Shown: positions 7,556 to 26,900 of the stretch, in pieces | Numbering within the stretch: the stretch's first letter is position 1 | How the letters are laid out: each line of letters starts with the position of its first letter | Source: Peterkaempfera griseoplana | GTDB lineage: Bacteria; Actinomycetota; Actinomycetes; Streptomycetales; Streptomycetaceae | Reading direction: 5' to 3' | Assembly: GCF_001418575.1 (NCBI RefSeq) | Contig: NZ_LIQR01000259.1 | Location: 1-43,251, forward strand | Length of the DNA stretch: 43,251 nt | Notes under the pieces: generated by a model | Seen by the model: the letters and a program-made list of their open reading frames with translations, nothing else | The model's database searches: none | Told to the model about the DNA's origin: nothing | Program-made: the position numbers and the translations under genes

Positions 7556-9265
7556 TCAGCCGGCGGCGGTGACCAGCCCGCGGATGTGCCCCACCGCGTC
7601 GGAGAGCGGCACGGTGCGGGTCTCGCCGCCGGCCCGGGTGGTGATCTCCACCGTGCCGTTGGCCAGTCCGCGGGCGCCGACCGTGACCCGGAAGGGGATG
7701 CCGACCAGCTCCACGTCGCGGAACTTCACCCCGGGCCGCTCGTCGCGGTCGTCCAGCAGGACATCGATCCGCTCCCGCCGCAGCTCCGCGTACAGGGTCT
7801 CGGCCGCCTCGGTGACCTGGACGTCGCCCTTGCCGAGGACCACCACGGCCACCTCGAAGGGGGCGATCGCCACCGGCCACACCATGCCCTGCTCGTCGTG
7901 GTGCGTCTCCACCACGGCGGCCAGCGCCCGCTCCACCCCGATGCCGTAGCTGCCCATGACGGGGACCACCCGGTCGCCCTCCGGGCCGAGCACCGAGACA
8001 CCCAGCGTCTCGGTGTACTTGCGGCCGAGCTTGAAGATATGGCCGACCTCGATGGTGCGGACCACCTCCAGCCCGGCGCCGCAGTCCGGGCACGGCTCGC
8101 CCGTCGACACCTCGCGCAGGTCCGCCCACTGCCGCACCGCGATGTCCCGCTCGACGGCGACGCCCCGCAGATGGAAACCGTCGGTGTTGGCGCCGGTGGA
8201 CATGCTGGTACGGCCGCGCAGCGACTCGTCGGCCACCACCGGCAGTCCGGCGGGGACACCGACCGCGCCGAGGCTGCCCGGGGAGGCACCCAGCGCCGCC
8301 TGGATCTCCTCGGGGGTCGCCGGGCGCACCGCGGTGGCGCCCAGGGTGTCGACCAGCTTCTGCTCGACCAGGGTGTGGTCGCCGCGCAGCAGCACCAGGG
8401 TCAGCCGGCCGTCCACCGCGTACACCAGGGTCTTGATCTGGCGCTCCGCCGGGACGCCGTGCAGCCGCGCCAGTTCGTCGATGGTGCGGGCGTCGGGGGT
8501 GGCGAACCGCTCCGGGGTGTCCGGTCCCGGGCCGTCGGTCACCTCGGGCAGGGCGGAGGTGGCCTTCTCGGTGTTGGCGGCGTAGCCGCACTCCGGGCAG
8601 CGGACCACCAGGTCCTCGCCTGCCTCCGAGGGGCACATGAACTCCACCGAGGCGCTGCCCCCCATGGAGCCGCTGGAGGCCTGCACCGCGACGGCGGGCA
8701 GCCCCAGCCTGGCGAAGATCCGCTCATAGGCGCCCCGGTGCAGGTCGAAGGCGCGGTCGAGGCCGGTGGCCTCGACATCGAAGCTGTAGGCGTCCTTCAT
8801 GGTGAACTCGCGCACCCGCAGCAGGCCGCTCTTGGGGCGGGCCTCGTCGCGGAACTTGGTCTGGAACTGGTACCAGATCTGCGGCAGGTCCCGGTAGGAC
8901 CGCAGTTCCTGGGAGAGCACGGTGAAGATCTCCTCGTGCGTCATACCGAGCGCCAGGTCGGCCCCCTTGCGGTCCCGCAGCCGGAACATCTCCTCGCCCA
9001 TCACCTCCCAGCGGCCGCTGCGCTGCCAGATCTCGGCCGGGTGCAGGGCGGGCAGGACGAACTCCTGCGCCCCGATCCGGGTCATCTCCTCCCGGATGAT
9101 GTCGACGATCTTGGACCGGACCCGTACCGCGAGCGGCAGCAGCGAGTAGTGGCCGGCCATCAGCTGCCGGACGAACCCCCCGCGCACCAGCAGCCGGTGG
9201 CTGACCGCGTCCGCGTCCGCCGGGTCCTCGCGAAGTGTGGGGGCGTACAGCTGGGACCAGCGCAT
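7556..9265 (-). CDS. proS: Prolyl-tRNA synthetase, bacterial type
   Basis: ProRS charges tRNA-Pro with proline. The 569-residue length and the order of parts match the bacterial-type enzyme: N-terminal class II core starting MRWSQLYAPTLREDP, motif 2 region (RVREFTMKDAYSFD), an inserted editing domain (about 240-390), the motif 3 region GSYGIGVERALAA, and a C-terminal anticodon-binding domain. The ATG at 9265 matches the family start. It stands alone, with a terminator-like hairpin at its 3' end and a GC-rich hairpin just upstream of its start. Confidence 0.96.
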   Translation of the reverse strand: MRWSQLYAPTLREDPADADAVSHRLLVRGGFVRQLMAGHYSLLPLAVRVRSKIVDIIREEMTRIGAQEFVLPALHPAEIWQRSGRWEVMGEEMFRLRDRKGADLALGMTHEEIFTVLSQELRSYRDLPQIWYQFQTKFRDEARPKSGLLRVREFTMKDAYSFDVEATGLDRAFDLHRGAYERIFARLGLPAVAVQASSGSMGGSASVEFMCPSEAGEDLVVRCPECGYAANTEKATSALPEVTDGPGPDTPERFATPDARTIDELARLHGVPAERQIKTLVYAVDGRLTLVLLRGDHTLVEQKLVDTLGATAVRPATPEEIQAALGASPGSLGAVGVPAGLPVVADESLRGRTSMSTGANTDGFHLRGVAVERDIAVRQWADLREVSTGEPCPDCGAGLEVVRTIEVGHIFKLGRKYTETLGVSVLGPEGDRVVPVMGSYGIGVERALAAVVETHHDEQGMVWPVAIAPFEVAVVVLGKGDVQVTEAAETLYAELRRERIDVLLDDRDERPGVKFRDVELVGIPFRVTVGARGLANGTVEITTRAGGETRTVPLSDAVGHIRGLVTAAG

Positions 9266-20817: not shown

Positions 20818-20872
20818 TCCAACTCTGGTGGCCCAAAGCCGTGGTGCGGGGTGGAGCGGCCGGACAGCGGCA

Positions 20873-20911
20873 CGGCCGCATCCCCAGGCTAGAGCGCCGG
20901 GGATGCGGCCG
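20873..20911 (-). terminator. Terminator hairpin after ftsH
   Basis: CGGCCGCATCCCC (20873-20885) pairs perfectly with GGGGATGCGGCCG (20899-20911) over a 13-nt loop, 30 bp downstream of the ftsH stop. It separates ftsH from folE. Confidence 0.7.
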
Positions 20912-20941
20912 TTCATTCCGGGTGCGGGGCCCGGAGGGGGG

Positions 20942-22969
20942 TCAGACGCCGGAGGGCGGCTCCTCCAGCGGAGGGAGCTTGACCGTGTCCACCGGGGAGT
21001 CGGTCACCGACGGGGAGGCCGGCTGGCTGCCGTTGGTGAGGGCGAGCTCCTTGGGGGACTGCACCGGCGGACGGGTGGACGGCGTACGACGGGTGGAGCC
21101 CGTCCAGGCCGGCCGCGGCGGGCGCTTGACGATCGGCTTGAAGATCTCGGCGATCTGCTCCTTGTTCAGGGTCTCCTTCTCCAGGAGGGCCAGAACCAGG
21201 TTGTCGAGCACGTCGCGGTTCTCGACCAGGATCTCCCACGCCTCGTTGTGCGCGGTCTCGATCAGCTTCTTGACCTCTTCGTCGACCAGCGCGGCGACCT
21301 CTTCGGAGTAGTCGCGCTGGTGCGCCATCTCACGGCCGAGGAACGGCTCGGACTGGTCGGAGCCGAACTTGATGGCCCCGAGGCGCTCGGTCATGCCGTA
21401 CTGGGTGACCATGGCCCGCGCGGTGGCGGTGGCCTTCTCGATGTCGTTGGCCGCACCGGTGGTCGGGTCGTGGAAGACCAGCTCCTCCGCCGCACGCCCG
21501 CCCAGCATGTAGGCCAGCTGGTCGAGCATCTCGTTGCGGGTGGTGGAGTACTTGTCCTCGTCCGGCAGGACCATGGTGTAGCCCAGGGCCCGGCCGCGCG
21601 ACAGGATGGTGATCTTGTGCACCGGGTCGCTGTTGGGAGAGGCCGCCGCGACCAGGGCGTGTCCGCCCTCGTGGTACGCGGTGATCTTCTTCTCCTTGTC
21701 GCTCATGATCCGGGTCCGCTTCTGCGGGCCGGCCACGACACGGTCGATCGCCTCGTCCAGGGTGACGTTGTCCACCAGCTTCTTGTCGGAGCGGGCGGTC
21801 AGCAGCGCGGCCTCGTTGAGCACGTTGGAGAGATCGGCACCGGTGAAGCCGGGGGTGCGGCGGGCGACGGCCTGGAGGTCGACGTCCGGAGCGATCGGCT
21901 TGCCCTTCTGGTGGACCTTGAGGATCTCCAGCCGGCCCTGCAGGTCGGGGCGCTCCACGGCGATCTGCCGGTCGAAGCGGCCCGGGCGCAGCAGCGCCGG
22001 GTCCAGGATGTCGGGGCGGTTGGTGGCCGCGATCAGGATCACGCCGCCCTTGACGTCGAAGCCGTCCATCTCGACCAGCAGCTGGTTGAGGGTCTGCTCA
22101 CGCTCGTCGTGGCCGCCGCCCAGGCCCGCACCACGGTGCCGGCCGACGGCGTCGATCTCGTCGACGAAGACGATGGCCGGGGCGTTGGCCTTGGCCTGCT
22201 CGAAGAGGTCGCGGACCCGGGACGCACCCACACCGACGAACATCTCGACGAAGTCGGAACCGGAGATCGAGTAGAACGGCACCCCGGCCTCGCCGGCCAC
22301 GGCGCGGGCCAGCAGGGTCTTGCCGGTACCGGGCGGGCCGTAGAGCAGCACGCCCTTGGGGATCTTGGCGCCGACGGCCTGGAACTTGGCCGGCTCCTGC
22401 AGGAACTCCTTGATCTCGTGGAGCTCCTCCACCGCCTCGTCCGCACCCGCCACGTCGGCGAAGGTCGTCTTCGGGGTGTCCTTGGTGATCAGCTTGGCCT
22501 TGGACTTCCCGAAGTTCATCACCCGGGAGCCGCCGCCCTGCATCTGGTTCATCAGGAACAGGAAGACGATCACGATGAAGACGATCGGCAGCATCGACAG
22601 CAGGATGCTGAGGAACGCGTTCTGCTTGGTCGGGGAGACGGTGTAGCCGTCCGGGAGCTTGTTGCTCTCCTGAGCCGACTGCAGCTTGTCGGCGATGGCA
22701 ACGCCCTGGTCGCCGATGTACGACGCCTTGACCTTGTTGCTGCCGTCGATCTTCTGGTTGTCCTTGAGCTGGATCTTGACGGTGTTCTCGTCGCCCGTGG
22801 TCAGCTGCGCCTGCTGCACCCTGCCGGCATCGATGGCCGCCACGACCTCGCCGGTGTCCACCGTCTTGTAGCCGTTCGAGGACGAGACGACCTGCATCAG
22901 TACGATGACGGCAAGAACGGCCAGCACGATCCACATGATCGGCGCACGGAAGTATCGTTTGACGTCCAT
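20942..22969 (-). CDS. ftsH: ATP-dependent zinc metalloprotease FtsH
   Basis: FtsH is a membrane AAA+ protease that removes damaged or short-lived membrane and cytosolic proteins. From the ATG at 22969 it has 675 residues: membrane segments at about 11-28 and 118-140 flanking an extracytoplasmic domain, Walker A GPPGTGKT at 211-218, Walker B IVFVDEID, the second region of homology ([19 protein letters not shown]) and the zinc site HEGGH at 433-437. The last ~75 residues are a Pro/Ser/Thr-rich tail. The open frame upstream (12 codons) lacks the family start, so MDVKRYF is preferred. hpt is 276 bp upstream. Confidence 0.97.
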
Positions 22970-23245
22970 CCATGCGGGGCGTCGCCGCCCCGTCCCTCCT
23001 GCCACTCAACGGCGCCGGGCGGTCTCTTCGTCCGCCGGCGCATCCGGGTTATGTGCTTCGACCTCATGCGGTCCCCGCTCGCGGTACCAAGTCGCAGTAC
23101 TAAGAGCGGGTTATTTGAACAAGTAGTACAGCTTGGACGGTACCGCAGCCACCCACCTCAAGGACGAATGCGGACCGCTGGAAGTTCAACGGCGGGTGGC
23201 AGCGCTCTGTTCCCAGCCACCGCCACCCGCCCGCAGACGGTCGGC

Positions 23246-23800
23246 TCAGCCGCCGTAGACGTGGGGCGCCAGGGTGCCGACGAACGGCAGGTTGCGGTAC
23301 TTCTCCGCGTAGTCGAGGCCGTAGCCGACCACGAACTCGTTGGGGATGTCGAAGCCCACGTACTTGACGTCGATCTCCACCTTGGCCGCATCGGGCTTGC
23401 GCAGCAGGGTGCACACCTCGAGGGAGGCGGGGCCCCGGGAGCCCAGGTTGCCGATCAGCCAGGAGAGCGTGAGGCCGGAGTCGATGATGTCCTCGACGAT
23501 CAGCACGTCACGGCCCGCGATGTCGGTGTCGAGGTCCTTGAGGATCCGCACCACGCCGGAGGACTTGGTCCCCATGCCGTACGACGAGACCGCCATCCAG
23601 TCCATGGTCACCGGCGAGTGCAGGGTCCTGGCCAGGTCGGCCATCACCATCACGGCGCCCTTGAGGACGCCCACGATCAGCAGGTCCCGGCCCGCGTAGT
23701 CCCGATCGATCCGGCCCGCCAGCTCGGCGAGTTTGGAGTCGATCTCGTCCTTGGTGATCAGCACCTTGGCGAGATCGGTGCCCATGTCCTTGTCGTCCAC
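23246..23800 (-). CDS. hpt: Hypoxanthine phosphoribosyltransferase
   Basis: Hpt salvages hypoxanthine and guanine with PRPP to IMP and GMP. The 184-residue protein has the PRPP-binding motif [14 protein letters not shown], the flexible-loop region [14 protein letters not shown] and the C-terminal [18 protein letters not shown]. The GTG at 23800 follows a good GAGGAAG site and matches the family start; an ATG at 23785 is possible. Only 14 bp separate it from the stop of the preceding MFS-TilS fusion gene, and its ribosome site overlaps that stop, so the two are probably on one transcript. Confidence 0.95.
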
Positions 23801-23814
23801 CGCGCGGTACTTCC

Positions 23815-25899
23815 TCAAGCGTTTGGGGTCTGGGTCCGGAAGAACAGACTGCCACACCTGCGGCGGGCCTCGACGCCCCCGGGCAGGTGCAGCGGCCCCT
23901 GGCCGCGCCAACCCGTGACCAGCTGCTCCACCGCCTCCACATGCCGGGCGAAGAGGTCCCCGGGCGGGCTGCCCGCCCGCACCGCGGCACGGCGCAGCAC
24001 CCGGCGGCGCACGGCGGCCGGCAGCTCGGCCAGCCGGCCCGCGTCCAGCGGCCCCTCCGGGTCGGCCGGGTCGCGCAGCTCGCGCTCCACCTGGTCGGCC
24101 CAGACGTCCAGGGCGTCGGCGTCGTCACGGAACAGCCGGGCGGTACGGGCCAGCGCCTCCACCACACCGCCGCCCAGGTGCTTCTCCAGCACGGGCAGCA
24201 CCTCATGGCGGACCCGGGAGCGGGTGAACGCCGGATCGGTGTTGTGCGGGTCGTCCCAGACCGCGACGCCCTGGGCGGCGCAGGCCTGCCGGGTGGCGGC
24301 GCGGTCGACCTCCAGCAGCGGCCGGCGGTAGCGGCCCGCGGCGGGCGGCATCCCGGCGAGGGAGCGGGCGCCGGAGCCGCGGGCGAGGCCCAGGAGCACC
24401 GTCTCGGCCTGGTCGTCGCGGGTGTGGCCGAGCAGTACGGCGAGGGCGCTGAAGGCGGCTGCGGCGGCCACCGCGCCGGCCAGGCCGTGGGCGAGCTGGG
24501 CTCGGTCGGGGTGCTGGGTGCCGCCGTGCAGGGAGTTGCTGTAGAGGGTCGCGAGTACGGCGACGCCGAGGGAGAGGCCGATCTGCTGGACGGCCTGGAG
24601 CAGCCCGGAGGCGGCACCGATCTCCTTGGGTGCGAGTCCGGCGAGGATGGTCATGTTGAGCGGGACGAAGCCGAGGCCGAGTCCGGCGCCGAGCAGGACC
24701 AGCGGACCGAGCAGCCCGGTCGGGTAGCTGCTGTGGGGTCCGGTGGCGGTGAGCCACAGGCTGTCGGCGAGCATCAGGGCCGAGCCGGTGACGATCAGTG
24801 CCTTGGCGCCGTACTTGGGGATCAGCTTGGGAGCGCTGCGGGCCGTGGCGAACTGCGCGAGTGCCATCGGCAGAAAGGCCAGTCCGGTGGCCAGCGGGTG
24901 CAGGCCCAGGCCGTTCTGGACGTACAGCGAGAGCAGGAAGTAGGTTCCGCCCATCGTGGCGAACAGCAGCAGGAAGATCGCGTACGCGCCGGGGCGGGCC
25001 CGCTGGGCGAACAGACGCAGCGGGATCAGCGGCTGACGGACCCGGGTCTGGGTGATCGTGAAGGCGATGAGCAGCAGGACGCCGATCGCCAGGGCGAGCA
25101 CGGTGGTGACCGAACTCCAGCCGGCCGAGGAGGCGTTGATCAGCCCGTAGACGACGGCGGTCATGCCGGCGGTGGAGGTGAGTGCGCCGATGACGTCGGG
25201 GCGGCTGGGGTGCTTGTCGGTCTCCGGGAGCAGACGGGTGGCCAGGACGACGGCGGCCAGGCCGATCGGTACGTTGACGAAGAACACCAGTCGCCAGGAG
25301 AGCGTGGTGAGCAGGCCGCCGAGGATCAGTCCGATGGTGATGCCGAGTCCGGCGACGGTGGAGAAGACGCCGAGCGCGCGGTTGCGTTCCGGGCCGTCCC
25401 GGAAGGTGACGGCGATCAGCGAGAGTGCGGCGGGTGCGGCGAAGGCGAAGCCGATGCCCTGGGCGGCGCGGGCGGCGATCAGCAGCGCGGGGTTCGGGGC
25501 GAGTCCGCCGAGCAGCGAGGCGGCGACCACGACCAGCAGGCCCCTGACGAACATCCGCCGCCGCCCGAGGATGTCGCCGGCTCGCCCGCCGAGCAGCAGC
25601 AGTCCGCCGAAGGCCAGTGAGTACGCGCTGAACACCCAGGCCAGGCCGCTGGAGGAGAAGTTCAGGCCGGACTGGATACTGGGCAGCGCGATGTTCACGA
25701 TGTTTCCGTCGACCGCCACCATGAGCTGGCAGGTGACGATCACCGCGAGGGCCAGCGAACCGGCCCGGCCCGGTCCCGGCGACGGTGCGGCGGGCGCGGG
25801 CGGCGTGGAGGGCGTGACCTGGTCCACCGGACCGGCAGCTTCGGTCTGCCCGGCAGGGGTGGGCGGCTCGGCCACCGATGGCTGGTCGTGGGTCGTCAT
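23815..25899 (-). CDS. Fusion: DHA2-type MFS exporter joined to C-terminal part of TilS
   Basis: The 694-residue frame begins as a 14-helix drug exporter of the EmrB/QacA type: Pro-rich cytoplasmic N-terminus, then [26 protein letters not shown] (motif A) and a long run of hydrophobic segments to about residue 485. Near residue 488 it changes without a frame break into tRNA(Ile)-lysidine synthetase: [18 protein letters not shown] at about 491-508, then [20 protein letters not shown] and the C-terminal helical domains, ending just before hpt, where tilS belongs. The TilS N-terminal PP-loop with SGGxDS is absent. The start at 25899 has an AAGGAG site 6 bp upstream. Transport may still work; lysidine synthesis from this protein alone should not. 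Confidence 0.9.
24415..24450. other. Rearrangement joint between core chromosome and accessory DNA
   Basis: On the minus strand, transporter-like codons (AAAAAFSAL) give way to TilS codons ([10 protein letters not shown]) within AVLLG, at about 24427-24441. Both parent proteins plausibly contain AVLL here, so the exact base cannot be fixed. Left of this point gene order is standard for the family; right of it the expected tilS 5' half is missing. Confidence 0.75.
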
Positions 25900-25995
25900 G
25901 ACCGGCTCCTTGAGCACAGGACGAGGCAGCGTCGAGGGAACAGCCGCGGTCGACGCTTGTAGACTGCTTCATGGTAGGGACGTATCCAACTCTGG

Positions 25996-26048: not shown

Positions 26049-26900
26049 ATGGCAGATCCCCACACCGACGACAGCGACCCGGACGGCGTGCCGGCCGGTC
26101 GCGGTGAGCGGCGCACCCGCAGCCGGCAGGCGATCCTGGCGGCCGCCCGGGAGCTGTTCTCCGGACTCGGCTACGAGCAGACCACGGTGCGCGCGGTGGC
26201 CCACCGTGCCGGGGTGGACCCGGCGCTGGTGATGAAGTACTTCGGCTCCAAAGAGCGGTTGTTCGAGGCCGTTTCGGAGATCGGACTGGGCTTCGGCGCC
26301 GTGCTCAGCGGTCCGGCGGACCGGCTCGGCGACCGGCTGCTGGCCCATGTGCTGGCCGACATCGACGGCCGCCCGGACCGCAGCATGCCGGTACTGCGCT
26401 CGATGCTCACCCACCCGCAGGCCGCCGAGGCGGTGCGCTGCGCGGTCGCCGACCCCGGCAACAGCCCGGTGGCCCGGGCGCTGACCGGCGACGACGCCGA
26501 GCTGCGGGCCGCCCTGGTGGGCACCGTGGTGCTCGGCCTGCTGGTCTCCCGCTACCTGCTGCGCGTTCCCGAGGTCGACCAGGCCCCGGCCGAGCAGCTG
26601 GTCGACCTGCTCGGGCCGTGCCTGCGGCCACTGCTGGCCGACCATGTCGACCATGTCGACGAGGTGGATCAGGTGGACGGCCCGGCCGCCGGTGCCGGGT
26701 CCGCCGGCCCGCTGGCCGCACTCGCCGCCGCCGAGTCGGCCCGGCTGGCGGCGGCCGAGGACGTGGACCGGCTGGCCCGGGAGGCACTGGCCGCCGGGGC
26801 GTCCTTCGGCGAGGTCGGCCAGCTGCTGGGGATCAGCCGACAGGCGGCCCGTAAACGCTGGCCGCGCACCGAGGCGGCGGAACCCTCTGCGACAACCTAG
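26049..26900 (+). CDS. TetR-family regulator with extra C-terminal helix-turn-helix
   Basis: The 283-residue protein starts at the ATG at 26049, 7 bp after a strong GAGGAGG site; ATG at 26010 lacks such a site. Residues ~20-70 form a TetR DNA-binding domain (RQAILAAARELFSGLGYEQTTVRAVAHRAGVDPALVMKYFGSKERLF). A helical ligand-binding domain follows to about 200. An acidic His/Val/Asp linker (DHVDHVDEVDQVD) then leads to a second helix-turn-helix near the end (ASFGEVGQLLGISRQAARKRW). Two DNA-binding modules in one TetR protein is unusual. It is divergent from the MFS-TilS gene and probably represses it. Confidence 0.88.
   Translation: MADPHTDDSDPDGVPAGRGERRTRSRQAILAAARELFSGLGYEQTTVRAVAHRAGVDPALVMKYFGSKERLFEAVSEIGLGFGAVLSGPADRLGDRLLAHVLADIDGRPDRSMPVLRSMLTHPQAAEAVRCAVADPGNSPVARALTGDDAELRAALVGTVVLGLLVSRYLLRVPEVDQAPAEQLVDLLGPCLRPLLADHVDHVDEVDQVDGPAAGAGSAGPLAALAAAESARLAAAEDVDRLAREALAAGASFGEVGQLLGISRQAARKRWPRTEAAEPSATT

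Follow-up and report, generated by a model that had tools for sequence, protein, structure and literature searches.

A transporter-TilS fusion gene in a draft genome of Peterkaempfera griseoplana is most likely an assembly artefact

We analyzed a 43,251-bp stretch of DNA from P. griseoplana (hereafter the window), which is the whole of contig C178 in a draft assembly of 8.24 Mb and 802 contigs with an estimated completeness of 95.6%. On its minus strand, a single open frame (23815-25917) encodes 700 amino acids when read from a GTG codon, and its natural start is probably the ATG at 25899 (MTTHDQPSV...). The first ~488 residues of this frame are a DHA2-type MFS exporter (24451-25899, minus strand), followed by ~204 residues from the C-terminal part of the tRNA(Ile)-lysidine synthetase TilS (23815-24450, minus strand). 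Pfam domains are found on both sides: MFS_1 at residues 62-451 (E = 1.9e-45), ATP_bind_3 at residues 489-572, where only positions 95-182 of the 182 in the profile are covered, and the TilS substrate-binding domain (PF09179) at residues 624-691 (E = 1.2e-11). The TilS part thus lacks the half of the catalytic domain that carries the SGGxDS ATP-binding loop, which is absent from the fused frame, and retains the HxxDDQAET motif as HTRDDQAET at the joint itself. The stop codon (23815-23817) lies 14 bp ahead of the GTG start of hpt at 23800. An unbroken exporter-TilS frame, a break between the two catalytic motifs and this 14-bp spacing had all been claimed by an earlier sequence-only reading of the window, and all three claims hold.

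The neighbors of the fused frame are of two kinds. Downstream are hpt (hypoxanthine phosphoribosyltransferase; 23246-23800, minus strand), which is the normal downstream neighbor of tilS, and ftsH (20942-23005, minus strand), the next gene of a conserved core region; both are collinear in the two genus-mates that we compared, G001 (a single complete contig of 7.09 Mb) and G002. On the other side, a TetR-type regulator (26050-26900, plus strand) is transcribed divergently from the exporter and is its natural partner. The plus-strand reading of the fused region contains an internal stop, and the frame belongs to the minus strand, an assignment that the sequence-only reading had not given. Two long plus-strand open frames, at 20828-24331 (1167 aa) opposite ftsH-hpt-tilS and at 23887-25620 (577 aa) opposite the exporter, are probably shadow frames that arise from GC-rich codon composition.

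The exporter side lacks only its last ~13 residues and its stop codon. The EmrB and LmrA models match it over nearly its whole length, both below their own cut-offs (for EmrB, 206.7 bits versus a cut-off of 230.2), and this similarity to drug exporters along the length, together with the MFS_1 match, places it among the DHA2-type MFS exporters. Among the matches listed, the closest named relative is a 477-aa protein of Kitasatospora phosalacinea (L063:8025-9458) with 75% amino acid identity. The divergent exporter/TetR pair is conserved in K. phosalacinea and also in Nocardia. Unlike the exporter of the window, the K. phosalacinea ortholog has its own C-terminus (ALAVLIALLTLTRPVRRP) and stop codon, whereas here tilS sequence stands in place of the final ~13 residues; the genes beyond the pair in K. 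phosalacinea also differ from those in the window. A search of the genome for the missing exporter tail, with the 3'-terminal part of the K. phosalacinea ortholog and its flank as query, returned no convincing match.

The 204 residues of the tilS side are 94% and 92% identical to the TilS proteins of the two genus-mates, far above chance, and the same downstream genes (hpt, ftsH, and folE) follow in all three genomes; the difference is that in the window an exporter takes the place of the first half of the catalytic domain. There is no stop or frameshift in the 204 codons, and dN/dS is ~0.1, as it is between the intact genes of the genus-mates. By these sequence measures, this part of tilS is evolving like an intact gene, with no decay. 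We found tilS in each of the 40 relatives searched, essentially whole in 39 of them and divided between two contigs in the remaining one, a draft. As a separate observation, a C-run near the 5' end of the G001 gene (L022:10340-10350) differs by one C from that of G002, which puts the annotated-looking start in another frame; this may reflect an error in sequencing or the use of another start.

Comparison of gene order places a discontinuity inside the fused frame. Between ~15.6 kb and 24469, the window and both genus-mates are collinear at 84-92% DNA identity (folE, ftsH, hpt, and the 3' part of tilS), and collinearity extends further left, with interruptions. At 24469, within a gene, the similarity to the genus-mates ends, and alignments to other tilS loci end at or near the same place. 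To the right of this position there is no collinear match in G001 or G002, only weaker, scattered paralogs. GC content is mostly 0.73-0.77 on the outer left of the window versus 0.66-0.71 on the right. The comparison with relatives suggested in the sequence-only reading therefore yields collinearity up to 24469 followed by a break, which fits a misjoined contig, one of the three options it had offered.

The expected continuation of the core region lies elsewhere in the draft. Searching the genome with the corresponding region of G001, we found a short contig, C707 (4066 bp), that carries ppa, dacB, a zinc metalloprotease gene, and the 5' end of tilS, and whose final base falls inside tilS. In G001 coordinates (L022), C707 reaches ~10,560 and the tilS sequence of the window picks up at ~10,700, so ~140 bp are present in neither contig. 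Taken together, the window and C707 make up the ordinary locus of G001 and G002 with these ~140 bp missing between them. The tilS piece on C707 (L028:3977-4066) also has a 147-bp in-frame loss relative to G002, which sits between short repeats (CGCCTTCG) and removes 49 codons including SGGxDS; this loss may be genuine or a further artefact. A missing half or a second tilS elsewhere in the genome had been another of the options offered; the missing half does exist, at the cut end of C707, but the assembly contains no second tilS, and the only separate segment found, the C707 piece, lacks SGGxDS.

The joint itself (24430-24469) is a microhomology between the 3' end of an exporter gene and the middle of tilS. 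To place the switch, we aligned the window with the K. phosalacinea exporter, which ends in ...GALAVLIALLTLTRPVRRP, and with tilS of G001 and G002. From this comparison, the switch lies within DNA that is nearly identical and in the same frame in both genes; at its core (approximately TCGCCGTACTGCTCG), exporter and tilS both encode Ala-Val-Leu. The shared sequence is ~15 bp long, an uncertain length given that the parents aligned are the genes of relatives. Such joints readily preserve the frame. When exact matches of 12-16 bases between different genes were tallied over 50 gene-like frames of this genome, 80-84% of them shared reading frame, so that an in-frame chimera would be the default outcome and needs no selection. 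Base composition differs strongly between codon positions, and as a result roughly four out of five joints made at a microhomology between two genes would stay in frame.

Other parts of the assembly were considered in the same way. In seven other contigs compared with the genus-mates we found no further mid-gene switch in synteny, and therefore rejected the idea that the assembly is chimeric throughout. In two of the contigs, collinearity ends right at tRNA genes (L300:6188 in C387; L307:7526 and 13711 in C5), a pattern that integrated elements would give. Within the window, a complete proS (prolyl-tRNA synthetase; 7556-9265) separates two genes that adjoin each other in G001, while G001 and G002 have proS elsewhere. 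We considered and rejected proS as a second misjoin: because the gene is whole, its neighbors are intact, and its usual G001 surroundings were not found in the analyzed genome, its position is probably a natural relocation.

Based on the gene order and contig ends, we propose with high confidence that the transporter-TilS fusion is an artefact of assembly and not a gene of the organism. A false join during assembly of a fragmented, GC-rich genome of the Kitasatospora type is the most likely origin of the fusion because the missing half of tilS is found where another, short contig breaks off. Under this proposal, two unrelated chromosomal places, a core region with the 3' half of tilS, hpt, ftsH, and folE and an accessory region with the TetR-flanked DHA2 exporter, would have been joined in one contig within a short near-identical stretch, while C707 received the start of tilS with the genes upstream of it and ~140 bp were left out of both. 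That the locus is divided between two contigs, that synteny switches at the joint, and that the joint is a microhomology are directly observed. The cause would be a dip in coverage in very GC-rich DNA, with the gap bridged by chimeric molecules alone, and these may have arisen by template switching at the microhomology. In the organism, tilS would presumably be whole and its product would make lysidine at C34 of tRNA-Ile2, and the exporter would presumably end normally ~13 residues further on. There is precedent for such errors: a comparable Illumina draft of Streptomyces leeuwenhoekii in 658 contigs had many misassemblies, missing sequence, and joins contradicted by the true chromosome (PMC4487206). 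In that case long reads proved the errors, most of which affected repetitive polyketide gene clusters (PMC4487206), whereas the present case is based on the order of genes and the positions of contig ends, with a joint that falls within two single-copy genes. Three observations count against a misjoin. The seven other contigs compared show no further mid-gene switch, a microhomology of ~15 bp is short for plain k-mer collapse, and the 49-codon loss from the C707 piece could be read as real decay.

The last of these observations bears on an alternative that we regard as unlikely, in which a genuine chromosomal rearrangement split tilS, TilS activity was lost, the tail on the exporter is a functionless passenger, and the extremely rare AUA codons are read in some other way. 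Both pieces of tilS are indeed defective, no mid-gene chimera was seen in the other sampled contigs, AUA accounts for just 2 of 3854 codons in sampled window genes, and a tRNA gene with a UAU anticodon exists on contig C258. However, ~98% of bacterial genomes encode TilS, and neither E. coli nor B. subtilis survives deletion of the gene, even though TilS may not be essential in every species (PMC12514573). The 3' part of tilS shows no decay, and C707 stops exactly within tilS, as an unassembled end would. A true rearrangement retains its small share of probability because of the seven contigs free of mid-gene switches and because the microhomology is short for collapse by the assembler.

The tRNA genes of the draft give little support to a change in AUA decoding. 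The UAU-anticodon tRNA (L274:7330-7402; C258:15329-15400) folds into a cloverleaf with a G1-U72 pair and has G37, not the A37 carried by tRNAs that read A-starting codons. UAU anticodons are rare among bacterial tRNAs. This gene looks to be in an accessory region, and its closest matches from phages and plasmids include Lys, Arg, and Leu tRNAs; judging from these features, it is unlikely to be a good reader of AUA. G001 has several tRNA genes with a CAU anticodon: fMet-type genes, an elongator Met-type gene next to tRNA-Thr, and one beside two tRNA-Asn genes, which we infer to be tRNA-Ile2. The draft has neither the tRNA-Asn nor the Ile2-type genes, whose expected location is flanked by the ends of C7 and C337. 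Gaps thus occur even where indispensable genes must lie, and because this place falls in one of them, the missing Ile2-type gene says nothing about the organism. The checks of tRNA-Ile(CAU) and of AUA usage that had been suggested therefore return a gene whose place falls between contigs and a very rare codon. With the CAU-type gene in a contig gap and a G37-bearing UAU tRNA that resembles phage and plasmid tRNAs of other specificities, we rejected AUA decoding without TilS as an explanation.

A real and functional fusion, in which the tRNA-binding part of TilS would be held on a membrane anchor while another TilS did the essential job, is very improbable. In its favor, the 700 codons of the frame are uninterrupted, and the TilS substrate-binding domain is retained in the tail. 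However, the assembly offers no second TilS, and we rejected both a second tilS and an N-terminal half encoded as its own gene, given that the sole other tilS DNA is the C707 5' end, cut by the end of the contig. A fusion family was likewise rejected, with no similar protein seen among the 40 relatives or the best exporter relatives. The tail also retains the native tilS stop codon and its 14-bp distance from hpt, which is what cutting through the original locus would leave, and in-frame joints are the default at such microhomologies. The new role on a transporter tail that had been offered as a third option is accordingly not borne out: tilS is ordinary in relatives and the nearest exporter ortholog has its own stop. 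Finally, we consider it exceedingly improbable that the strain lost TilS through a split gene and a deleted catalytic loop and now reads its rare AUA codons with an acquired UAU tRNA from C258; we know of no such change of AUA decoding in streptomycetes.

If the fusion were real, it would mean a bacterium living without an essential tRNA-modifying enzyme. If it is a misjoin, as we propose, it shows that a chimeric contig in a GC-rich draft can yield a long, in-frame fusion gene that is plausible in its domains, and that, in such GC-rich genomes, an open frame says little in favor of a fusion being real.
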